A program made the translations under genes and the position numbers. A stretch of DNA of 37,013 nucleotides from NCBI GenBank assembly GCA_020718045.1, contig DYDD01000001.1:1-37013 (forward strand). Direction: 5' to 3'. Below, piece after piece: positions 19,352-31,508 of the stretch (positions are counted from its first letter, which is position 1; each line of letters opens with the position of its first letter). The stretch is from Fibrobacter sp. Lineage in GTDB: Bacteria; Krumholzibacteriota; Krumholzibacteriia; LZORAL124-64-63. The notes under the pieces were generated by a model. It had not been told where the DNA came from and made no database searches. It saw only the letters and a program-made list of their open reading frames with translations.

Positions 19352-20155
19352 CTATTCCATTTCCTCGCGACGGATCTTGTCCTTCCTTTCCGCAAGCTTG
19401 GTCAAGCCCAGGGCTACCGAACCGAGCACGACCGCCCCGGCCCCGGAAATGCCGCCGAGGGCGGGGCGTGTTTCGCGGTGCAGCGACCCGATCACGCCGA
19501 TGCCGGACTGGGGATTCTCCGGGAAACCCTCGTACTCCCTCCCGTAGGGAAGAACGTACAGGACGGAGCTGCCGCCCCCTTCCCTCAGACCGTACAGGAT
19601 CCCCTTCTTGTGTTTCCTGACACGCGCCCGGCCGATCCTCACCAACTCCTCCCTTTCTCCGAACAGGGTCGCTCCGGAGGGGCACGTGGTGACACAGGCG
19701 GGTTTCTTGCCGACCTTCTGTCGATCCATGCACATGGTGCATTTGCGGGCGATCGCGTACTCCTCGGAGAGCTTCGGGGCACCGAAGGGGCAGTTCTCGA
19801 CGCAGGTTCCGCAACCGAGGCAGAGCGCGGGATCGATGGAAACGACTCCGTACTCGTTGCGGGTGGCCGCCTTGGGTTCCGCGGGGCAGAGGCTGACGCA
19901 GGTCGGGTCCGTGCAGTGATGGCAGCGGCGCTGGGTGAAGGCCCAGACCAGCTTGCCGTCCAGGATGGTTTCCTCATGCATCTGCAAGAGGAGCCAGGTG
20001 TTGGCCGAGATCCATTTCGGGTTGGTGTAGGATGGCCCCTCGAACCAGCCGGAGCTTTCTCCTTGCAGGCCGTTCCACTGTTTGCAGGCCACCTGGCAGC
20101 CCCGACAGCCGGTGCAAAGCAGCGGATCGTAGAGAATGGCAGGATTCTTCAACAT
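19352..20155 (-). CDS. fdhB: Formate dehydrogenase beta (4Fe-4S ferredoxin) subunit with C-terminal membrane helix
   Basis: CTGCRGCQVACKQWN, CHHCTDPTCVSLCP, CLGCGTCVENCPFG, CTMCMDR...CVTTCPSGA; hydrophobic GAGAVVLGSVALGL near the C-terminus. Confidence 0.9.
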   Translation of the reverse strand: MLKNPAILYDPLLCTGCRGCQVACKQWNGLQGESSGWFEGPSYTNPKWISANTWLLLQMHEETILDGKLVWAFTQRRCHHCTDPTCVSLCPAEPKAATRNEYGVVSIDPALCLGCGTCVENCPFGAPKLSEEYAIARKCTMCMDRQKVGKKPACVTTCPSGATLFGEREELVRIGRARVRKHKKGILYGLREGGGSSVLYVLPYGREYEGFPENPQSGIGVIGSLHRETRPALGGISGAGAVVLGSVALGLTKLAERKDKIRREEME

Positions 20156-23151
20156 CAGGCCGTCCCTCCCTTCTGCACGTTGCAGAGGAAGACTTTGTAC
20201 TCCGGAATGGAGGTGTTGGCATCTCCCCAATGCCCGGTCAACCGGTTGGCCGGCGCGCCGGTGCTTTCGCCGATGAAGCCGAAATGCCAGGGCAGGGCGA
20301 TGCATTCCACCGACCGGTCGTTGACCCGGAAAGGCTGGATACGCCGGGTGACGTGGGCCCTGGCCTCGATGCGGCCTCGGGGACTCGACACCACGACCGA
20401 GTCCCCGTTCTTGATGCCGAGCCGCTCGGCAAGTTCGAGGGACATCTTGACGAACATGGCCGGCACCAGCTCATTGAGCAGGGTGATGTTGCGAGTCATC
20501 TGACCGGCTTGCCAGTGCTCCGACAATCGGTGGGTGGTGGCGATGATGGGATATTTTTCGAGGAACTCCTCGAAGTTCTCCGCGTTCTGCGTCGGGACCT
20601 GAAAGAGGACCGCGGCCGGGTTGTTCTGCGTCGAGGAGAGTCTGTTGCGCATGACGCTCTCCATCGGCTCGTAATGCTCCGGCAGCGGGCCGTCCACCAT
20701 TCCGCTGGTGGCGAAGAGACAGGCGACTCCTTCGGGGCGCATGATGAAGGGGCGCTTGTCCTGCGGGGGCCAGGGGCCGTCGGGGACATCGCCCAGCCAG
20801 CCGCCCTTCCCTTCATTGGCTGTGGGATCCCACTTGACCACCCACTTGTCGGGATTCCACGGCACTCCGTCGGGGTCGCACGAGGCCCGATTGTAGATGA
20901 TCCGCCGATTGACAGGCCAGCACCAGGCCCACTTGGGGTAGAGGCCGATCCTGTTGGCGGCGTCGGTCGGATCCCGCCGGGCCATCATATTGCCGGCGTC
21001 GGTGTAGCTCCCGGCATAGATCCAATTTCCGCAGACCGTGGTCCCGTCATCCTTCAACGCTGCGAAACTCGGGACCTGTTTCTTGGTGGTGTCGTCGTAG
21101 CCGTTGATCTCCCTGGCGACCTTGTGAACATCGATTCCCTCCTCGCCGCCCTCGTAGTCCCAGGCCAGGTTGACGATAGGATCGGGGAATCTGCCGCCTT
21201 CAGTGCCGTAGAGGCGTTTGAGCTCCCGGACCAGATGGTCCAGGATCCACAGGTCGGATTCGGCCATGCCCAGTGGTTCGACGGCCTTGTAGCGCCACTG
21301 GGCCCAGCGGCCGGAATTGGAGATGGACCCTTCCTTTTCGAAAGAAGCCGAGGCCGGCAGCAGGAAGACCTCGGTCCGGACGTCGGCCGGCGGGCCGCCA
21401 TACGGGTGATGCCAGAAGTTGGCCGTCTCCGTCTGCCACAGGTCCACAGCGACCAACCAGTCCAGGTTGGCGAGGGCCTGGGTTTCCCGATTGGTGTCGG
21501 GACCGCCCACGGCGGGGTTCTGTCCGAAGAAGAACGCCCCTTTGATCCGACCCTTGTCCATGTCCTCGAAGATGGCCATGTGCGAATGGTTCCCGCTTCG
21601 CTTGGGCAGCCAGTTGAAGCAGAAGTCGTTTTCCTTGGTCGCGGCGGCGCCGTACATGGCCTTCAGGTGGGAAACGATGTACTTGGGATAGTTCTGCAAC
21701 CAGTTGGCGCTGGTAGGATCCTTGGTGGCCGGGGTGCAGCGCTTGATGTAGTCGGCCAGGAGCTGGTCGGCTGCGATGGGAGTCTGCAGGTAGCCCGGCA
21801 GGATATGGAACAGAAGGCCGAAGTCCGTTGAACCCTGGACATTGGATTCGCCGCGCATCGCGTTGATGCCGCCGCCGGCGATGCCCATGTTGCCGAGCAG
21901 GGTCTGCAGGATGGCCCACGCGCGAACGTTCTGTGAGCCGACGGTGTGCTGGGTCAGACCCATGGCGTAGAGCATGGTTCCGGACTTGCCGGGTTGCCCG
22001 GTTTCGCAGAAGGCTTCGGACACGGCCAGGAAATCCTTCATCTCGCAGCCGCAGACATCGGCCACGGTCTCCGGGGTGTACCGGGCCACGTGGGCCTTCA
22101 GCACCTGGAACACGCAGTCGGGGGCCTGCAGGGTCGGGTCGGACCTGATCTGGCCGGCCTCGTCCTTCTGGTAGGCCCAGGAAGTCAGGTCATAAGCTCT
22201 CTTCTCGGCATCGAAACCCGAGAACAAGCCGTCGGTCAGCTTGAAGTCCGGGCTCAGGAGGAAGGAGGCGTTGGTGGCCCACTTGACGTAGGCCTCGTGG
22301 TACTTCTTGTTCTTGAGGGCGTAGCGGATCATGCCGTTGACGAAGGCGATGTCCGTACCCGGTCTGAGTTTGCAGTAAAGGTCCGAGCGGTTCGCGCTGC
22401 GGGTGAAGCGCGGATCGATGGTGATGATCCTGGCTCCGCGTTTCCTGGCCTCCAGGATGTGCTTGAAGGCTATGGGGTGATTGGAGGCCGGGTTGGATCC
22501 GGCGATCATGACGACATCGGCATTGGCGATGTCGTTCCAGTGATTGGTCATGGCTCCACGGCCGAACGATGCCGCCAGACCGGCGACAGTGGACGAGTGT
22601 CATATTCGGGCCTGGTGCTCGATGTTGATCAATCCCAGCGCCCGCATGGCCTTGCCGAGAACGTAGGCCTCCTCATTGTCCAGGGCGGCGCCGCCGAAAC
22701 AAGCGATGCCGGTGGTGCGGTTGACCACCTTGTCGCCGTCCTTCTCCTGGAAGGAAGCGTCGCGGGTGGCTTTCACCCGCTTGGCGATCTCGCGCAGGGA
22801 CCAGTTCCAGGGCTTCGGCACGAACTGCACGGACCCCGGCGCCCGGTAGAGGACCCGGGTCATGCGATAGGGATTCTCGAAGATCCGACTCAGGGCGGCG
22901 CCCTTGGAACAGAGCGCTCCCTGATTGATGGGGTGGTCGGGATCGCCTTCGGTGTTGACCACCTTGTCGGCGTTGACGGTGACGATGATCCCGCAACCGA
23001 CGCCGCAATAGGGGCAGATGGTGGTGGTTTCCTTCCCGGTCTTGATCCGGTCGGGCAACGGTACGGCTCCGCTCACCTTGGGTAGACCCAGCGTGCCCAC
23101 GGCCGTGACGGATCCCAGGATCTTGAGCACTTCCCGGCGACTAAGCGTCAT
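20155..23151 (-). CDS. fdhA: Formate dehydrogenase alpha subunit, selenocysteine-containing, Tat-exported (UGA at 22600-22602 read as Sec)
   Basis: Track ORFs 22600-23202 and 20155-22551 are in the same frame, separated by TGA; junction EHQARI-U-HSSTVAGLAASFGRGAM; CPYCGVGCG...CSKG cluster; Tat motif SRREVLK. Confidence 0.93.
22571..22587 (-). promoter_or_regulatory. Bacterial SECIS element
   Basis: GTCGCC-GGTCT-GGCGGC hairpin beginning 12 nt after the UGA; GGUCU loop starts 18 nt after the UGA. Confidence 0.85.
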
Positions 23152-24028
23152 GTTGCTTCCTTTCAACAGCGAGTTGCAAGGGCAGCGAAACGAGGTGGTC
23201 ATGGAGGGGGAACGGCGAGTCGGACTCAGGATGCATGGTGATCGGGAGAATGGTGCGGCATGCGGTGCAAAAGTCGATCCGATGGTGTTCTGAATGGTCC
23301 TGATAGAGGTAGCCTAGGGATTCCTGCCGGGTGTTTTCGCAGAAGGAGCATCTCAGCCGGGGGACCGTCCAGGGGAACTGGCATCTCCCGCAGATCAGGA
23401 TCTTGTGGCGGGACCGATGGTGGAAATACCCGTGGTAGGGTCGGCCGCCGCAGACCGGGCAGTGTTTTCTTCGCCAATCCTCCTGGCGGAAGCCGGCCAG
23501 TACCTGGCGGGCGAATGCATAGAGGAAGGGCTGGATGATGAAGCCGCCGAACAGCAATTCCGGCCGGGAATCGTTGGTCTTCGCTCGGAAATAGAGTCGG
23601 GCCCAGCGGATCTGTTCGTCGGGGCCCAGGTCCAGCAGGCGCAGCAGGTCTCCCAGCGCTTCCAGATCGGAGAAAGGCGGGGAGCGGAAGAGGCGGAGCA
23701 GTCGACGATGCTGCTGCTGAAGCGGGGCAGCTTCCCACTGGATCATGGTCTCGTCCAACAGGGGAATACCTGCATTCAGTCCCATCCTGTCATCCGTGGT
23801 GGACAGGACCGGTGAAATGACCGATCGCCAATTGGCGGCGGCCCGTGGGTAGGTATGCCATACCGCACGCAGGACCGAGTAGACGGTGGGGTCGATGACT
23901 GCTGGCGCCGTGCAGTCGAAGCGGCGTGCAGCATCGGCGAGCGCCGGCATCCGGATACGTACTTCCCGGGATGTTCGCATCGTCATCCGATGGTGATCGG
24001 TGTCCCTGATGTGTTCAGTCCGATTCAT
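23141..24028 (-). CDS. fdhE: Formate dehydrogenase accessory protein FdhE
   Basis: CPVCGGRPYHGYF, ICGRCQFPWTVPRLRCSFCENTRQESLGYL, DFCTACRTIL; GGAGG RBS; stop overlaps the fdhA start region. Confidence 0.88.
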   Translation of the reverse strand: MNRTEHIRDTDHHRMTMRTSREVRIRMPALADAARRFDCTAPAVIDPTVYSVLRAVWHTYPRAAANWRSVISPVLSTTDDRMGLNAGIPLLDETMIQWEAAPLQQQHRRLLRLFRSPPFSDLEALGDLLRLLDLGPDEQIRWARLYFRAKTNDSRPELLFGGFIIQPFLYAFARQVLAGFRQEDWRRKHCPVCGGRPYHGYFHHRSRHKILICGRCQFPWTVPRLRCSFCENTRQESLGYLYQDHSEHHRIDFCTACRTILPITMHPESDSPFPLHDHLVSLPLQLAVERKQHDA

Positions 24029-24399: not shown

Positions 24400-24699
24400 A
24401 TGCTTCACGGCCCTGCCCGACACGCCGGCCCGGATCCCGCAAGCGGCTACAAGACCCGGCTCGGCGTGGTGATGTTCATCATCTACTGCGTCGTGTACAC
24501 CGGGTTCGTCATGTTGAACGTCCTGTCCGAGGGCCGGACGATGCAGGTGATCGTCTTCGGCGGCTTGAACCTCGCGGTGGTCTACGGCTTCGGTCTAATC
24601 GTCTTCGCTCTGGTCCTGGCACTCATCTACAATCGCCTGTGCACCCAGAAGGAACGCGAACTTTCAGGCTGCGACGGCGCAGAGGAGGTCGGCTCGTGA
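24400..24699 (+). CDS. DUF485 family membrane protein
   Basis: About 99 aa, two TM segments, VVMFIIYCVVYTGFVML...GFGLIVFALVLALIYNRLC; AGGAGG RBS; precedes an ActP-like symporter. Confidence 0.8.
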   Translation: MLHGPARHAGPDPASGYKTRLGVVMFIIYCVVYTGFVMLNVLSEGRTMQVIVFGGLNLAVVYGFGLIVFALVLALIYNRLCTQKERELSGCDGAEEVGS

Positions 24700-26570
24700 A
24701 TCTGCACGGCACTCCCCTGTCCATCATCATCTTCGCGCTGTTCGTCGCGGCGGTGCTGTTCCTGAGCTTCTTCTTCGCGCGCAAGGCGAAGTCGGCCGCC
24801 GGCTACTACGCCGCCGGCGGCCAGATCCACTGGGCGGTCAACGGGATCAGCTTCGCCGGCGACTACCTGTCGGCCGCGTCGTTCCTGGGCATCTGCGGCA
24901 TGATCGCCACCCTGGGCTACGACGGCTTCCTCTATTCCATCGGCTACCTGGCCGGCTGGGTCGTGGCGCTGTTCGTGGTGGCCGAGCCCATGAAGCGCAT
25001 GGGGAAGTTCACCTTCACCGACGCCCTGGACGCCAAGTTCGACAGCCGCGGCATCAAGCTGACCGCGGCCATCTCGACGCTGGTGGTGTCGATCTGCTAT
25101 CTCATCCCGCAGATGAACGGCGCCGGCTCGCTGGTGGAGCCGCTGCTCGGCCTCCCCCACTGGGTGGGCGTGATCCTGGTGGGCGCCATCGTGATCGTGA
25201 TCGTGTCGGCCGCCGGCATGACCTCCACGACGTACGTGCAGTTCCTCAAGGGCGGCCTGCTGCTGATCTTCTCCACCATCCTGGTGGGCTTCGTGCTCTC
25301 GCGCGGCCTGAGCACCGAGCCCGTGGGGCTCGACGACGGCGCTCCCGGCGGCGAGATGACCGTGCAGGCCACAGAGAGCCAGCTCCAGGAGCAGGGGTAC
25401 GCGCTGCTGCACACGACCGGCAGCCTGCTGAAGTACGACCGCGACGGAGCGACCACCTGGTGGAAGCGCGAGGCCGACGGCACGCTCTGGCGGGCGCAGT
25501 GGAGCAGCGGGGACCAGGTCAATGGCGTGGCGGGCGGCGTGCTGGAACCCGTCGGCCGCTTGCGGCAAATCGGTGGAATGAGTGCAGCGGAAGCCGCTGA
25601 CGGCACCGGCGCGGTGGGCCCGCTGGCCTTCCTGGCCCACCTGACGCACCCCGACACCCGCGTCGAGCAGTGGCAGAAGCAGGCCGTGACCGACGAGAAG
25701 GGCGCCAAGTACGCGGTCTACTCGCCGAAGACCGTCTCGGGCACCGACGAGATGAAGCCGGGCGTGAAGTTCAAGGTGCACACCACGACCGAGAAGCTCA
25801 ACTTCGTGTCGCTGATGATGGCCCTGTTCTTCGGGACCGCGGCGCTGCCGCACATCCTGATCCGCTACTATACCGTGCCGAGCCCGGCCTGCGCCCGCAA
25901 GTCGACGATCGTGGCCATCGCCTCGATCGGGTTCTTCTACGTCCTGACCCTGTTCCTGGGCCTCGGCGCGGCGGTCAACGGCACGGTGAACCCGGCCGAC
26001 AACAACATGTCGGCGCCGCTGCTGGCGATGTCGTTCGGCGGCGTGCTGTTCGCCGTCATCTCGGCCATCGCGTTCGCGACCGTGCTGGGCACCGTCGCCG
26101 GCCTGATCGTGGCCGCCTCGGGCGCGGTGGCCCACGACCTGATGGATCGCTTCGGCCGCATGGAGCTGACCGACCGCCAGAAGGTGCGCGCCGGCAAGAT
26201 CGCGGCCTTCGCCGTGGGCATCGTGGCGATCGTGCTGGGCATCGTCTTCCGCGGGGTCAACGTGAGCTTCCTGGTCGGCTGGGCCTTCGCCGTGGCGGCG
26301 TCGGCCAACCTGCCGGCCATCCTGATGCTCCTGTTCTGGAAGCGCACCACCGCGGCCGGCATCGTGGCCTCGATCATCGTGGGCATCGTTTCCTCGCTCG
26401 GCATCATCCTGACCGGGCCGGAGATGTTCGCGGGCCCGTACGGGCTGACCGCCGAACAGGCCTGGCACCCCCTGGGGCAGCCGGGGATCATCTCGATCCC
26501 GCTGAGCTTCCTGGCGCTGATCGTGGTGTCGCTGGTGACGAAGAACCGGCGGGTCGCCGAAGCGGCTTGA
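24696..26570 (+). CDS. Sodium:solute symporter (ActP-like) with a large soluble insertion
   Basis: FARKAKSAAGYYAAGGQIHWAVNGISFAGDYLSAASFLG, LIPQMNGAGSLVEPLLG, MALFFGTAALPHILIRYYTVPSP; GTG start overlapping the DUF485 stop. Confidence 0.9.
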   Translation: MNLHGTPLSIIIFALFVAAVLFLSFFFARKAKSAAGYYAAGGQIHWAVNGISFAGDYLSAASFLGICGMIATLGYDGFLYSIGYLAGWVVALFVVAEPMKRMGKFTFTDALDAKFDSRGIKLTAAISTLVVSICYLIPQMNGAGSLVEPLLGLPHWVGVILVGAIVIVIVSAAGMTSTTYVQFLKGGLLLIFSTILVGFVLSRGLSTEPVGLDDGAPGGEMTVQATESQLQEQGYALLHTTGSLLKYDRDGATTWWKREADGTLWRAQWSSGDQVNGVAGGVLEPVGRLRQIGGMSAAEAADGTGAVGPLAFLAHLTHPDTRVEQWQKQAVTDEKGAKYAVYSPKTVSGTDEMKPGVKFKVHTTTEKLNFVSLMMALFFGTAALPHILIRYYTVPSPACARKSTIVAIASIGFFYVLTLFLGLGAAVNGTVNPADNNMSAPLLAMSFGGVLFAVISAIAFATVLGTVAGLIVAASGAVAHDLMDRFGRMELTDRQKVRAGKIAAFAVGIVAIVLGIVFRGVNVSFLVGWAFAVAASANLPAILMLLFWKRTTAAGIVASIIVGIVSSLGIILTGPEMFAGPYGLTAEQAWHPLGQPGIISIPLSFLALIVVSLVTKNRRVAEAA

Positions 26571-26615: not shown

Positions 26616-27677
26616 ATGATGACCAGGTCCAATACTCTCCTGCGCGTGACGCTGCTGCTGCTGGCGGTGGCGGCGGCACCCGCGACTGCCGGCCCCCGTT
26701 GGGACTACGAAGAGGGCGCCTCGCTCCAGTTCGCGATGCTGGGGCAGTTCCACGCCGCCATGGCGGAGGGGGCTGCGGACGATCACGACCTGTACCTGCG
26801 CCGGGGTCGCCTCATCTTCTCGGGACAGATCGCCGACGGTGTGAAGTTCTTCGCCGAAACCGACAACGACAACGCCGGGCGCAGCGGCACGACCGGCGTG
26901 GCCTCCGATCTGCAGGACCTCTTCGTCGACCTGCGCCTCGGCGGCGACCACTGGCTGGAAGCCGGGTTGATCCTGCTGCCGCTGTCCTTCGAGAACACGT
27001 CTTCGGCCGCCACCCTGCTGGGCCTGGACTACAACGTCGAGGTGATCAAGCTTACCAACTCCTTCGTCTGGCGGGACCAGGGGCTGATGTTGCACGGTCT
27101 TTTCGGCAAGCAGATGGCCTACCGGGCGGGCGTCTTCGACGGGTACGAGGACGGCTCCGGGAAGAATCCCGAGGCCGCGCCCCGCTTCACCGGCCACCTG
27201 GAGTATGCGGCTGTGGGGGCCGCGCCGACCGCCTGGTTCCATGGTCAGGAGCGCCTGGGCGCCGACTCCTACCTGCTGCTGGGCACGGGGATCGACTACC
27301 AGGAGCGGGCCAGCCGCGTCGGCTTCGTGTCCGGGTCGTCTCCGGGGTGGATGATCAATAGCCGGGCCTTCGTGGTCGACATGCAGGCCGGATTCGTGCT
27401 GGAGGAGATGTTCGGGACGCTCAACGCCGGCTGGTACGACTGGGACAACGTCAATTTCGCGGGCAGTACCTGGTTCGCCGAGGCGGGCCTTCGCCGCGAT
27501 CGCGTGCAGCTGACGGGCAAGCTCGCCGTGAGCGACAACGACAGCGGCGTCACGATCCAGAACCTGACGGCGGGCCTACACTACTTCCGGGTGAAGCACA
27601 AGCTCCGCTACGGTCTGGAGTTCAGCACCGGGGACAGCCCGAACCAGCTGTTGGCGGGCCTGCAGTTCCTGCTCTGA
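26616..27677 (+). CDS. Outer-membrane porin (OprO/OprP phosphate-selective-like)
   Basis: Signal peptide; LYLRRGRLIFSGQIADGVKFFAETDND, LEAGLILLPLSFENTSS; beta-barrel pattern ending in LQFLL. Confidence 0.75.
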   Translation: MMTRSNTLLRVTLLLLAVAAAPATAGPRWDYEEGASLQFAMLGQFHAAMAEGAADDHDLYLRRGRLIFSGQIADGVKFFAETDNDNAGRSGTTGVASDLQDLFVDLRLGGDHWLEAGLILLPLSFENTSSAATLLGLDYNVEVIKLTNSFVWRDQGLMLHGLFGKQMAYRAGVFDGYEDGSGKNPEAAPRFTGHLEYAAVGAAPTAWFHGQERLGADSYLLLGTGIDYQERASRVGFVSGSSPGWMINSRAFVVDMQAGFVLEEMFGTLNAGWYDWDNVNFAGSTWFAEAGLRRDRVQLTGKLAVSDNDSGVTIQNLTAGLHYFRVKHKLRYGLEFSTGDSPNQLLAGLQFLL

Positions 27678-27724: not shown

Positions 27725-29791
27725 ATGAAGCGTCTGACGCTACGCACGGGCCTGCCAGCCCTCTTGGCCGTCGGCCTCTTCTCCGGCGTGGTCTTCTTCC
27801 ACTTCCTGCCCACCCTGGGCCGCGCGGTGATGGACCAGAAGCGCCTCATGATCCGCGAGCTGACCGAATCGTCGTGGAACATCCTGGCCCGCTACGAGGC
27901 CGAGGAGCGCGATGGCCGCCTCTCGCGCGAGCAGGCCCAGGCCGCCGCCATCCTGCAGGTCCGCAGCCTCCACTACGGCCAGGAGGGCAAGGACTACTTC
28001 TGGATCAACGACCTGCAGCCGCGGATGATCGTCCACCCCTACCGCCCCGACCTCGAGGGCGGCGACCTGTCCGCCTTCGCCGACCCGCACGGCAAGCTGA
28101 TCTTCGTCGCGATGGCCGACGTCGTGCGGCGCGAGGGCGCCGGCTACGTCGACTACATGTGGCAGTGGAAGGATGACCCCGCGCGCATCGTGCCCAAGCT
28201 GTCCTACGTCAAGGGCTTCGCGCCCTGGGGCTGGATCATCGGCACCGGCGTCTACACCGACGACGTCGACCGCGAGGTGGCGGCGGTGGCCGGGCGGCTG
28301 CAGGCGGCGGCCCTGCTGATCCTCGCCGCGGTGACGCTGCTGCTGGTCTTCCTGCTGCGTACCAGCTTCCAGGCGGAGCGCGGCCGCTTGCTCACGGCCG
28401 CCGCCCTGAAGACCTCCGAGGAGAAGTACCGCTCGCTGGTTGAGTCGGCCGGCGAGTCGATCTTCATGTCCGTGGGCGACGAGGGGCTCTTCGCCAACGC
28501 GAGCATGCTGAAGCTGGCGGGCTACGACCGCGAGGAGTTCGCGCGCCTGGACGCCGGGAAGCTGGTGCTGCCGACGGCCGCCGAGCTGGAGAGCGGGCGC
28601 CGGCACTGGCGGGCGGTGGCCGACGGGGACCGCGCGCCCCTGCGCTACGAGGCCGAACTGGTCACGCGCGACGGCGGCGGCGTGCGGGTCATGCTGTCGC
28701 TGTCGCGCGTGGTGCTGCAGGGCCGGCCCGGGTGCATGGCCGTGGCCACCCGCCTGGAGCAGCCGCACGAGCTCGATCTGCAGGCGGCGCGAAGCAGCGA
28801 CGACCTGGCGGCGGCGAACCGGCGCCTGGCGACCATGGCCGGCCTCATGATGAACCACGGGGCCGACGCCCTGCAGGTCAGCCGCATGCTGTCGCAGAAC
28901 GCGGACACGGCCGTGCGCAAGGGCGTGGAGCTGGCGATCGCCGAGCTGGGGCCGCCGCCGTCGGACTTCGACGTCATGCTCATGGGGAGCCTCGGGCGCG
29001 CCGAGGTGAGCCTGCTGGCGGACCAGGATCACGCCATCATCTACCCGGACCTGGAGGCCGGCGCGGAGGCTGCGGCGCGCGACTATTTCCTGCGCCTGGG
29101 CGTGCGGCTCTCCGCGATCCTGGACGCCGCGGGCTACCCCTACTGCAGGGGCGGCATCATGTCCGGAGAGCCCCGCTGCTGCCAGCCGCTTTCGGGCTGG
29201 CGGCAGACGTTCGCCGCCTGGATCCACACCCTGGAGGCCGACGACCTGCTGCAGGCGAAGATCTTCTTCGATTTCCGCGGCGCCCTCGCGCAGGACGGGC
29301 TCGTGACCGAGCTGCGTGCGAGCCTGGCGACCGAGATCGCGAGCGAACCCCGCTTCCTGCACCTGCTCGCGCGCAGCGTGCTGCAGTACGAGCCGCCGCT
29401 CAACGCGTTCGGCGGCTTCGCGCTGGAGAAGGGCGAGGCGGACCGCGCCACCTTCGACGTCAAGGGCGTCATGGCGCAGATCGTCGACTACGTGCGGTTG
29501 CGCGCCCTGCAGCACGGGGTCGCCGCCACCGCCACGGCGGACCGGCTGGCCGCCCTCGCGTCGGCGGGCAAGATGCGCGCCGAGACCGCCGTCGAACTCG
29601 CCGAATCCTACCGCTTCCTGATGGACCTGCGGCTGCAGCACCAGTCCCGGCGGATCCTCGAACGCCTCGAACCCGACAACCGGCTCGAACCGGACGCGCT
29701 CGACCCGGCGACGCGCCGGACGCTGAAGTCCGTGTTCGCCCACATCAAGGCGCTGCAGACCTTGCTGGACCACGAGTTCCGGGGGGGCTGA
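27725..29791 (+). CDS. Membrane sensor nucleotidyltransferase: Cache - PAS - DUF294 NTase - DUF294_C
   Basis: Cache: GKDYFWINDLQPRMIVHPYRPDLEGGDLS...YVKGFAPWGWIIGTGVYTDDVD between two TMs; PAS: KTSEEKYRSLVESAGESIFMSV; NTase: MGSLGRAEVSLLADQDHAIIYPD; helical C-terminal region. Confidence 0.83.
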   Translation: MKRLTLRTGLPALLAVGLFSGVVFFHFLPTLGRAVMDQKRLMIRELTESSWNILARYEAEERDGRLSREQAQAAAILQVRSLHYGQEGKDYFWINDLQPRMIVHPYRPDLEGGDLSAFADPHGKLIFVAMADVVRREGAGYVDYMWQWKDDPARIVPKLSYVKGFAPWGWIIGTGVYTDDVDREVAAVAGRLQAAALLILAAVTLLLVFLLRTSFQAERGRLLTAAALKTSEEKYRSLVESAGESIFMSVGDEGLFANASMLKLAGYDREEFARLDAGKLVLPTAAELESGRRHWRAVADGDRAPLRYEAELVTRDGGGVRVMLSLSRVVLQGRPGCMAVATRLEQPHELDLQAARSSDDLAAANRRLATMAGLMMNHGADALQVSRMLSQNADTAVRKGVELAIAELGPPPSDFDVMLMGSLGRAEVSLLADQDHAIIYPDLEAGAEAAARDYFLRLGVRLSAILDAAGYPYCRGGIMSGEPRCCQPLSGWRQTFAAWIHTLEADDLLQAKIFFDFRGALAQDGLVTELRASLATEIASEPRFLHLLARSVLQYEPPLNAFGGFALEKGEADRATFDVKGVMAQIVDYVRLRALQHGVAATATADRLAALASAGKMRAETAVELAESYRFLMDLRLQHQSRRILERLEPDNRLEPDALDPATRRTLKSVFAHIKALQTLLDHEFRGG

Positions 29792-29796
29792 GCGCG

Positions 29797-30534
29797 ATGG
29801 CGACCGGCGACGGCTCGATCCTGCTGCTCAGCGACGTCCACGCGCATTACGGGGTCGTCGACGCGCAGGCGGCCCACGCCCGGGAGACGCGCGGCCGTCC
29901 CGTCGAGCGGGTGCTGGTGCTGGGGGACTTCGGCCTGTTCGGCGCCGAACTGCACCGCCACTTCCGACGCGGCGGTCGCCGGTTCGCGCACCCCACGGCC
30001 TTCATCGAGGGCAACCACGAGGACTTCGCGTCGTTCGAGCGGCTGGTGCGCGACTACGCGGACGTCGTCACCCACCTGCCCCGCGCCTCCCGGTTGAGCC
30101 TGGGCGACTGGAACTGCCTGTGCGTCGGCGGCGCGCGCTACATGGATGCCTGGTCGACCCCGTGCGGCAGCGAGATCCGCGAGCGGGACATCGACGCCTG
30201 CCTGGCGCACGCTCCCGGCAGCATCGACCTGGTGATCAGCCACGACTGCCCCACGGGCATCGGGGTGACCAGCGAGGTCGCGCTCGCCCATCTGGGCCCG
30301 CCCGGCGTGGCCGGCCTGGCGCGCGTGGCGGCGCACCTGCGGCCGCGCTGGTGGGTCTTCGGGCACCACCACCGCTGGCATGAGAGCGAGCACGACGGGA
30401 TCCGCTACCTGGGGTTGCCCCAGAGCTGGCAGGGCTACGCGCTGCTGGAGCCGGGGGGCGAGGTGCGGCGCGTGGAGCACGAGATCAAGCTGCCGGGCCG
30501 GCGCGGGTGGCGTCGGCTGATCGGCTTGAGGTAG
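29797..30534 (+). CDS. Calcineurin-like metallophosphoesterase
   Basis: SDVHAHYG, VLGDFGLFG, EGNHEDF, VISHDCP, FGHHHRW. Confidence 0.85.
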   Translation: MATGDGSILLLSDVHAHYGVVDAQAAHARETRGRPVERVLVLGDFGLFGAELHRHFRRGGRRFAHPTAFIEGNHEDFASFERLVRDYADVVTHLPRASRLSLGDWNCLCVGGARYMDAWSTPCGSEIRERDIDACLAHAPGSIDLVISHDCPTGIGVTSEVALAHLGPPGVAGLARVAAHLRPRWWVFGHHHRWHESEHDGIRYLGLPQSWQGYALLEPGGEVRRVEHEIKLPGRRGWRRLIGLR

Positions 30535-30550: not shown

Positions 30551-31420
30551 TCACTCCACCGCCTCGATCAGAGCCTGGAAGTACGCCGGCATCTCGTGCC
30601 GCGGGTACCACGCCAGCGCGACCTCCCGATCCAGATGACGCCCCGGGCAGAGGTCGATCAATCGACCCTCGGCCAGCCACGGCGCGGCGACATCGGCCGA
30701 CAGGACCGAGTAGCCGAGACCCGCGGCCACCAGGGAGGCCAGGGCGTCCGGGTTGTTGACCAGGTGGCGGCGGCGGCGGCGGACGTCCGCCAGAAGCCCG
30801 TGCCCGCGCAGGAAGGAGAAGGTGGCGTCGTCGGAGGCGTCGAAGTCGATGATGCGCTCGTCGCTGACGATGGCGGGCAGCTCCCTCCCCGACCAGTCGG
30901 CGGGGCCGACCAGCAGCAGGCGATCGGGTTGCAGGCGTTTGGCGTCCAGCTCGTTCACCACGTCGTCGCGCGCCAGCACCGCCAGCTGGGCGACGCCGGT
31001 CTTCAGCTGGTTGAGCGCCGAATCCCGGTCGTCCAGGTGGAAGGTCAGCGCGAGACCGGGGAACTGCGGCAAGACGCCGGCGACGCCGGGGATCACCCGG
31101 CTGCGCATCAGGCTCGACGGACCGGTGATCGCGATGCGCACGTCGGCGACGTCGGCCCCGCGGCGGATCAGCGACAGTAGTTCGCCCTCCAGGTCCGTCG
31201 CGCGCTGGCCGTAGCGCAGCAGAGCCTCGCCTTCGGCGGTCGGGCGCATGCCCTTGCGCGAACGCACGAACAGGGTGCAGCCGAGATCGCGCTCCAGGCC
31301 GCGGACGCGCTGGGTGACGCCGGTCTGGCTCAGGCCGATCTCGCGGGCGGCGCCGTGCACGGTGCCGTGCCTCGCGACGGCCAGGAAGGCCGTCATGGCC
31401 GGATGCAGTAAACTCATCAT
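30551..31420 (-). CDS. LysR family transcriptional regulator
   Basis: N-terminal HTH FLAVARHGTVHGAAREIGLSQTGVTQRVRGLERDLGCTLFVRSRKGMRPTAEGEALL. Confidence 0.93.
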   Translation of the reverse strand: MMSLLHPAMTAFLAVARHGTVHGAAREIGLSQTGVTQRVRGLERDLGCTLFVRSRKGMRPTAEGEALLRYGQRATDLEGELLSLIRRGADVADVRIAITGPSSLMRSRVIPGVAGVLPQFPGLALTFHLDDRDSALNQLKTGVAQLAVLARDDVVNELDAKRLQPDRLLLVGPADWSGRELPAIVSDERIIDFDASDDATFSFLRGHGLLADVRRRRRHLVNNPDALASLVAAGLGYSVLSADVAAPWLAEGRLIDLCPGRHLDREVALAWYPRHEMPAYFQALIEAVE

Positions 31421-31508
31421 GAGTCATCAATAACTGATATCATTCAATTATTCAAATCAATTGTCGTGGCCTATCTTGCCTCCTCATCCGGCAGCGACAG
31501 GAGGCGTC

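Follow-up and report, generated by a model that had tools for sequence, protein, structure and literature searches.

Two adjacent genes at positions 27,725 to 30,534 of a 37,013-nucleotide stretch from Fibrobacter sp. (GenBank assembly GCA_020718045.1, contig DYDD01000001.1; "the window" below means this whole stretch) raise a question: which signal reaches a nucleotidyltransferase (NTase) built into a membrane sensor, and what does the metallophosphoesterase (MPE) encoded directly behind it do? An earlier reading of the DNA, made without database searches (the sequence-only reading), had taken the two products for a ligand-sensing writer of nucleotide marks and its eraser; the coordinates it gave and the 5 bp it placed between the NTase stop and the MPE start are correct. 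We compared the locus with homologous loci from public genomes and found the pairing in many phyla with both active sites conserved. We give even chances to the proposal that a carboxylate-gated nucleotidylyltransferase acts as writer and the MPE as a dedicated phosphodiesterase eraser, forming a reversible switch. The two genes and their domains are as follows.

27725..29791, + strand: membrane sensor nucleotidyltransferase, 688 residues, sCache_2-PAS-DUF294-DUF294_C (ATG at 27725, stop at 29791)
27830..28288, + strand: sCache_2 extracytoplasmic sensor, residues 36-188 (Pfam, 5.5e-38, over cut-off)
28412..28747, + strand: PAS domain, residues 230-341 (NCBIfam TIGR00229, sensory_box, 8e-8)
28823..29233, + strand: DUF294 nucleotidyltransferase domain, residues 367-503 (Pfam PF03445, 127.3 bits, 4.9e-37)
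28985..29029, + strand: catalytic motif GSLGRAEVSLLADQD, residues 421-435, with invariant key residues
29348..29779, + strand: DUF294_C substrate-binding-like helical domain, residues 542-685 (Pfam PF10335, 127.1 bits, 6e-37)
29797..30534, + strand: calcineurin-like metallophosphoesterase, 245 residues (ATG at 29797, stop at 30534; Metallophos 7.1e-10, Metallophos_2 1.7e-8)

The NTase, the product of the sole DUF294 gene in the 3.24 Mb assembly, begins with a short N-terminal region containing one hydrophobic helix, followed by sCache_2, a second hydrophobic helix, PAS, DUF294 and DUF294_C. The Cache-PAS-DUF294 architecture was thus read correctly from the letters: sCache_2 and the DUF294 and DUF294_C domains, the latter two in order, exceed their curated Pfam cut-offs, while PAS is supported through NCBIfam only (sensory_box, 32.4 bits against a cut-off of 22.9; Pfam PAS_9 stays under its own). 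In an alignment of 49 Cache-type proteins, Gly421, Ser422, Arg425, Glu427, Asp433, Gln434 and Asp435 are invariant, so the motif GSLGRAE...DQD is intact, as had been claimed. The motif is likewise invariant in a set of 34 sequences that includes classical proteins combining cyclic-nucleotide-binding (cNMP), CBS and DUF294 domains, and we reject a degenerate NTase on this ground. The window protein is not of that classical subtype, as it lacks the cNMP domain and the CBS pair and its neighbor is an MPE rather than an exonuclease. Forms of about 970 residues (e.g., L029:5962-8883; L and G numbers denote loci and genomes of our sample) carry one or two PAS domains and two CBS domains ahead of DUF294, with no cNMP domain, and link the membrane and classical types.

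An AlphaFold2 model of the NTase has a mean predicted local distance difference test score (pLDDT) of 88.4. The best structural matches of its NTase half are GlnE (1v4a, E 2.9e-10; 3k7d, E 2.1e-8) and the AMPylase domain of DrrA (6yx5), whereas a sequence search of the same half against the PDB gave no real match. GlnE and DrrA are protein adenylyltransferases. The window protein shares with GlnE, the glutamine synthetase adenylyltransferase, the fold of NTase plus helical domain and a weak sequence link, and differs in its single NTase domain, its separate putative eraser and its membrane sensor. We do not claim membership of the GlnE family, because the Pfam GlnE model (PF03710) scores 19.3 bits (8e-4), under its cut-off of 24. 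DUF294 NTases are widespread, are neighbors of acetate symporters in Pseudomonas and other model bacteria, and have long been predicted to nucleotidylylate. What is new here is the input (membrane Cache-PAS, with or without CBS) and the partner (an MPE); DUF294 NTases themselves are already known, though uncharacterized. The sequence-only reading had allowed that the architecture might prove both common and characterized: it is common, occurring in more than 70 species genomes, and no characterization of Cache-DUF294 was found in the literature searched.

The sensor domain points to a candidate signal. It aligns along its length with 4k08 and 5g4y, and the model superposes on both with a TMt of 0.92. 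The second of these is the PscD domain of Pseudomonas syringae, which contacts C2/C3 carboxylates through Tyr90, Trp92, His103, Phe126, Tyr143, Trp145 and Lys156 (PMC5062169). The aligned residues, Tyr91, Trp93, His104, Phe127, Tyr144, Trp146 and Lys158, are identical at all seven positions, as expected for the carboxylate ligand that had been suggested, and the pocket is invariant in the 49 relatives except for Trp93, which is kept in at least 90%. PscD, McpP and Adeh_3718, sCache_2 chemoreceptors with the same contact residues, pass their signal to a chemotaxis signaling domain, whereas the output of the window protein is an NTase. Because of this conserved PscD-like pocket and the neighboring symporter, the signal is likely acetate or another short monocarboxylate.

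The MPE carries all the metal motifs of the calcineurin-like superfamily (D-x-H, G-D, G-N-H-(E/D), H and G-H-x-H) and exceeds the Pfam cut-offs; Asp13, His15, Asp44, Asn73, His74, His149, His190 and His192 are invariant among 27 homologues, in line with the sequence-only reading. Its model (pLDDT 91.6) lies nearest to Dbr1, followed by the class III phosphodiesterases Rv0805, LpxH and GpdQ, which have the same superfamily metal motifs, so that its closest predicted folds are mainly those of phosphodiesterases. The Dbr1 matches show 16-18% identity at TM values of 0.6-0.7 (TMt 0.47-0.49 for entries of the Entamoeba type). Since the sequence match to Dbr1 is marginal (E 0.024 over 67 residues) and the window protein is about 100 residues shorter (245 against about 350), we do not regard the MPE as a Dbr1.

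To follow the pairing, we assembled a sample of 80 homologous loci, most of them from metagenome assemblies, with neighboring genes called by a simple open reading frame finder and by profiles built in this analysis. An MPE of the window type (class A) lies directly downstream of the NTase gene, overlapping it or within about 25 bp, at 33 of the 80 loci, where in L023 and L002/L005, with their split or merged reading frames, adjacency was judged across the break or fusion. These loci span about ten phyla, among them Krumholzibacteriota/Latescibacterota, Polyangia, Lentisphaerota, Planctomycetota, Riflebacteria, Thermodesulfobacteriota, Verrucomicrobiota and Spirochaetota, and the MPE is therefore a conserved neighbor, as the sequence-only reading had supposed. 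Among 58 relatives of the window genome, all 16 with a Cache-type DUF294 contain a strong class A match and none of the other 42 has one at a comparable score; four relatives with only a classical DUF294 lack class A, the sole weak match elsewhere scoring 65 bits. The 40 genomes of a second phylum contain 13 class A genes, every one of them immediately behind a DUF294 domain, and of their 14 full DUF294 genes 13 are paired with a class A MPE; the adjacency counts leave out two further class A genomes, G134 and G136. Metallophos genes number 195 in 20 genomes totaling 78 Mb (5-17 per genome, about one per 400 kb), and hence a Metallophos neighbor would be expected by chance in about 0.5% of cases. 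A symporter gene of the SSF type lies near the NTase gene at 58 loci and is thus a common neighbor.

The most telling observation, absent from the sequence-only reading, concerns what occupies the slot when class A is missing. Among the 71 loci with enough flanking sequence, 33 have class A, eight class B, ten class C and seven class D MPEs, seven an AP_endonuc_2 gene, one a PHP gene and five none of the kind. Thus, Cache-type NTases without class A usually have another phosphoesterase-superfamily gene, and the filling of the phosphodiesterase slot by unrelated folds is a new finding. Class B genes lie just after the symporter gene, class C genes converge on the NTase gene from 3-106 bp away, and class D genes precede it on the same strand. 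In profile comparisons class A stands apart from the other MPE classes, with a probability of 2% against B, 30% against C and 41% against D, whereas D is closer to both B (96%) and C (92%). Class A is absent from all 32 genomes with another partner or none, although the query scores more than 330 bits wherever a full-length gene is present. Of 198 Bacteroidota genomes, only three have class D, and in all three the gene directly precedes a DUF294 gene on the same contig and strand (in G168 and G199 with long Cache-sized frames, in G317 with a frame ended by the contig edge). The PHP partner has nucleoside bisphosphate phosphatase and RNase RNM as its closest matches, and the AP_endonuc_2 partner shows likeness to epimerases as well as to CbiR and Nfo. 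In a tree of the NTases, B and C each form one clade, A forms one clade save for a nested Geobacter branch, and the classical type stands separate. Because partner labels are clade-bound, locus counts overstate the independent events; read from the tree, partner exchanges number about four to six.

Two other arrangements were seen at these loci. Genes for Geobacter-type Cache-DUF294 proteins are followed by a histidine kinase gene with the same Cache domain and by a response regulator gene, and six Bacteroidota loci (L037, L048, L053, L066, L069 and L080) have a gene for a Crp-like regulator that separates the symporter genes from the Cache-DUF294 gene or its MPE gene.

The slot also exists beside classical DUF294 genes. 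In Bacteroidota, a DEDD 3'-5' exonuclease gene is directly beside the cNMP-CBS-DUF294 gene at 26 of 28 complete loci, and the two also adjoin in plasmid records of Vibrio, Hymenobacter and Pseudomonas aeruginosa; in Ruegeria, Paracoccus and Shinella they are one or two genes apart, and one of eight annotated plasmid records (Skermanella) lacks the exonuclease. Several classical records have a DUF4212 or DUF485 gene and a symporter gene just upstream. No paper on this pairing was found in the open-access literature searched. Classical systems with a DnaQ-like 3'-5' exonuclease (e.g., Pflu5625) therefore share with the window pair the catalytic and C-terminal domains, the invariant residues, the DUF485/DUF4212 and SSF company and a phosphodiester-cutting enzyme next door. 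They differ in being soluble, with cNMP and CBS input and an exonuclease partner, whereas the window protein has a membrane sCache-PAS input, no CBS domain and an MPE. A classical protein in the window's family, L113, carries cNMP and CBS domains. An interchangeable slot for the putative eraser across both DUF294 types is the part that would surprise a specialist.

Near classical DUF294 genes of the window's family we also noted a fusion of PAS with an RNase_T exonuclease, with an N-terminal hydrophobic stretch (L112:8289-9698, + strand; homologues in L108, L113 and L114). By its domain content, it would give the putative eraser a sensor domain of its own.

How might the parts work together? 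In the proposed switch, the NTase would be a one-component membrane receptor: acetate or a different C2/C3 monocarboxylate would bind to its periplasmic sCache_2 domain, and from there the signal would pass through the transmembrane helix and PAS to the GlnE-like NTase. The ligand-triggered enzyme would attach a nucleoside monophosphate to a target, most likely a protein Tyr, Ser or Thr, within the pathway for uptake or activation of acetate or another monocarboxylate, and the adjacent MPE would remove it. Domains, sensor pocket, catalytic sites and exclusive gene pairing are computed results, whereas the nucleotide, the target and the direction of writing and erasing are inferred. Reversible nucleotide modification is the best explanation because a GlnE-type NTase repeatedly adjoins phosphodiester-cutting enzymes of different folds. 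As to the target, our guess is the symporter or the acetate-activating pathway, given the SSF gene at 58 loci and the membership of Pflu5625, a classical relative in P. fluorescens, in the CrbS/R acetate regulon (PMC5715377). Precedents exist for both the gene arrangement and the chemistry. The gene of SidD, which deAMPylates the DrrA/SidM product in Legionella, adjoins that of the AMPylase, and SidD itself folds as a metal-dependent phosphatase (PMC12409994); RNase Z, a ribonuclease, deAMPylates SelO substrates (PMC12663964). The window locus thus resembles DrrA/SidM-SidD in encoding a GlnE-type NTase beside a metal-dependent phosphoesterase, DrrA being a best structural match of the NTase, but the Legionella proteins are secreted effectors acting on host Rab1 and SidD has the PPM phosphatase fold, whereas the window encodes a housekeeping-type sensor locus with a calcineurin-like partner.

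Several observations weigh against this proposal. In the open-access literature searched, we found no activity, product or target for any DUF294 protein, and deletion of Pflu5625 had a negligible effect on growth on acetate (PMC5715377). Class C MPEs are less exclusive, with distant relatives in genomes that have no linked NTase; the AP_endonuc_2 partner might not be a phosphodiesterase at all but a sugar isomerase; and the Geobacter-type branch (L035, L039, L046 and L062) has no phosphoesterase neighbor. DeAMPylation is not a general property of nucleases, since the DEDD exonuclease RNase T of E. coli failed to deAMPylate a SelO substrate. The substrates for which DEDD and Dbr1-like enzymes are best known are nucleic acids, and for this reason RNA or a small nucleotide may be what is modified.

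This last point leads to the main rival, which we consider unlikely: on binding of the Cache ligand, the NTase would make a nucleotide second messenger or tail RNA 3' ends, and the MPE or exonuclease would degrade the product. The partners indeed belong to types of nuclease or phosphodiesterase (DEDD exonuclease, Dbr1-like MPE, PHP and AP_endonuc_2), the CBS or cNMP nucleotide-binding domains of relatives could read such a signal, and DUF294_C belongs to the same clan as HEPN/MNT proteins (PMC3710099). However, the NTase half resembles GlnE and DrrA, the 50 best structural matches listed include neither a cyclase nor an OAS-type enzyme, and the loci have no conserved receptor or effector gene, the symporter being the common neighbor. 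It is less probable still that the MPE is an output instead of an eraser, being itself modified by the NTase or acting on a pathway metabolite under merely shared regulation. Gene order gives no direction, and partners of classes B, C and D differ in orientation to the NTase gene, but the partners of unrelated fold have phosphodiester chemistry in common and hardly a common modification site.

An NTase domain that is catalytically idle and serves as a signaling scaffold would agree with the lack of any reported DUF294 activity in the literature searched; we judge it very improbable, as about ten phyla and both architectures keep the catalytic Gly, Ser, Arg, Glu, Asp and Asp without exception. 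That the neighbors are together by chance or shared descent only is scarcely credible. Each MPE class is largely confined to one clade of the NTase tree, as descent would predict, but the adjacency in many phyla, far above the chance expectation, the absence of the MPE where the NTase is absent and its replacement by other phosphoesterases establish that the pairing of NTase and MPE is not due to chance. Returning to reversible protein nucleotidylylation, a wider form of the proposal strikes us as possible, at somewhat less than even chances: acetate-like acids outside the cell would be answered by this modification, with the eraser gene exchanged between unrelated families of nucleases and phosphoesterases (calcineurin-like MPEs and the DEDD exonuclease, perhaps also PHP and AP_endonuc_2), and the same logic would hold for classical DUF294-exonuclease pairs beside ActP-type symporters.

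Upstream of the pair, the window contains three further genes on the same strand.

24400..24699, + strand: small membrane protein of DUF485 type, partner of the symporter (likeness by eye to a neighboring-gene family)
24696..26570, + strand: Na+/solute symporter, ActP/MctC-like, GTG start (Pfam SSF 8.4e-67; NCBIfam MctC 1.5e-133, under cut-off)
26616..27677, + strand: outer-membrane porin, Porin_O_P-like (Pfam, 3e-7)

The DUF485-type gene gave no Pfam match in a scan made on a slightly out-of-frame stretch, and the representative of its family in L021 matches PF04341. Symporter, porin and NTase genes follow one another with gaps of 45 and 47 bp. The sequence-only reading had placed the pair in one run with symporter and porin; the symporter link holds beyond the window, while the porin occurs in the same gene order in L002, L016, L119 and L122, a position confined to the window's genus, and we do not count it as a core part. 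The LysR gene downstream (30551-31420) is also excluded, because it faces the opposite way, preceding an argG-like gene at 31461+, and because its homologue in L114 adjoins an argG-like gene without any MPE. No RNA element or riboswitch was found upstream, the RNA scan yielding only three tRNAs, and a promoter and terminator scan gave a chance-level result.

Compared with ActP of L136, the window symporter is longer by about 130 residues in a stretch that joins two transmembrane segments, where matching landmarks enclose 199 residues instead of 67; the insert is common to all aligned symporters linked to Cache-type NTases, from Bacteroidota to Elusimicrobiota. Farther upstream, a formate dehydrogenase-like gene (20155-23202, - strand) is split at an in-frame TGA, with a GC-rich, hairpin-like stretch (ATATGACACTCGTCCACTGTCGCCGGTCTGGCGG) behind it; the TGA is probably a selenocysteine codon and not the mark of a broken gene.

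For this protein family, a partner drawn from different folds points experiments to phosphodiester removal and supplies a reagent for them, and a likely ligand can be read from the carboxylate pocket. If the proposal is true, a ligand-gated, reversible switch of the AMPylation type would join bacterial membrane signaling, together with two or more new families of erasers.

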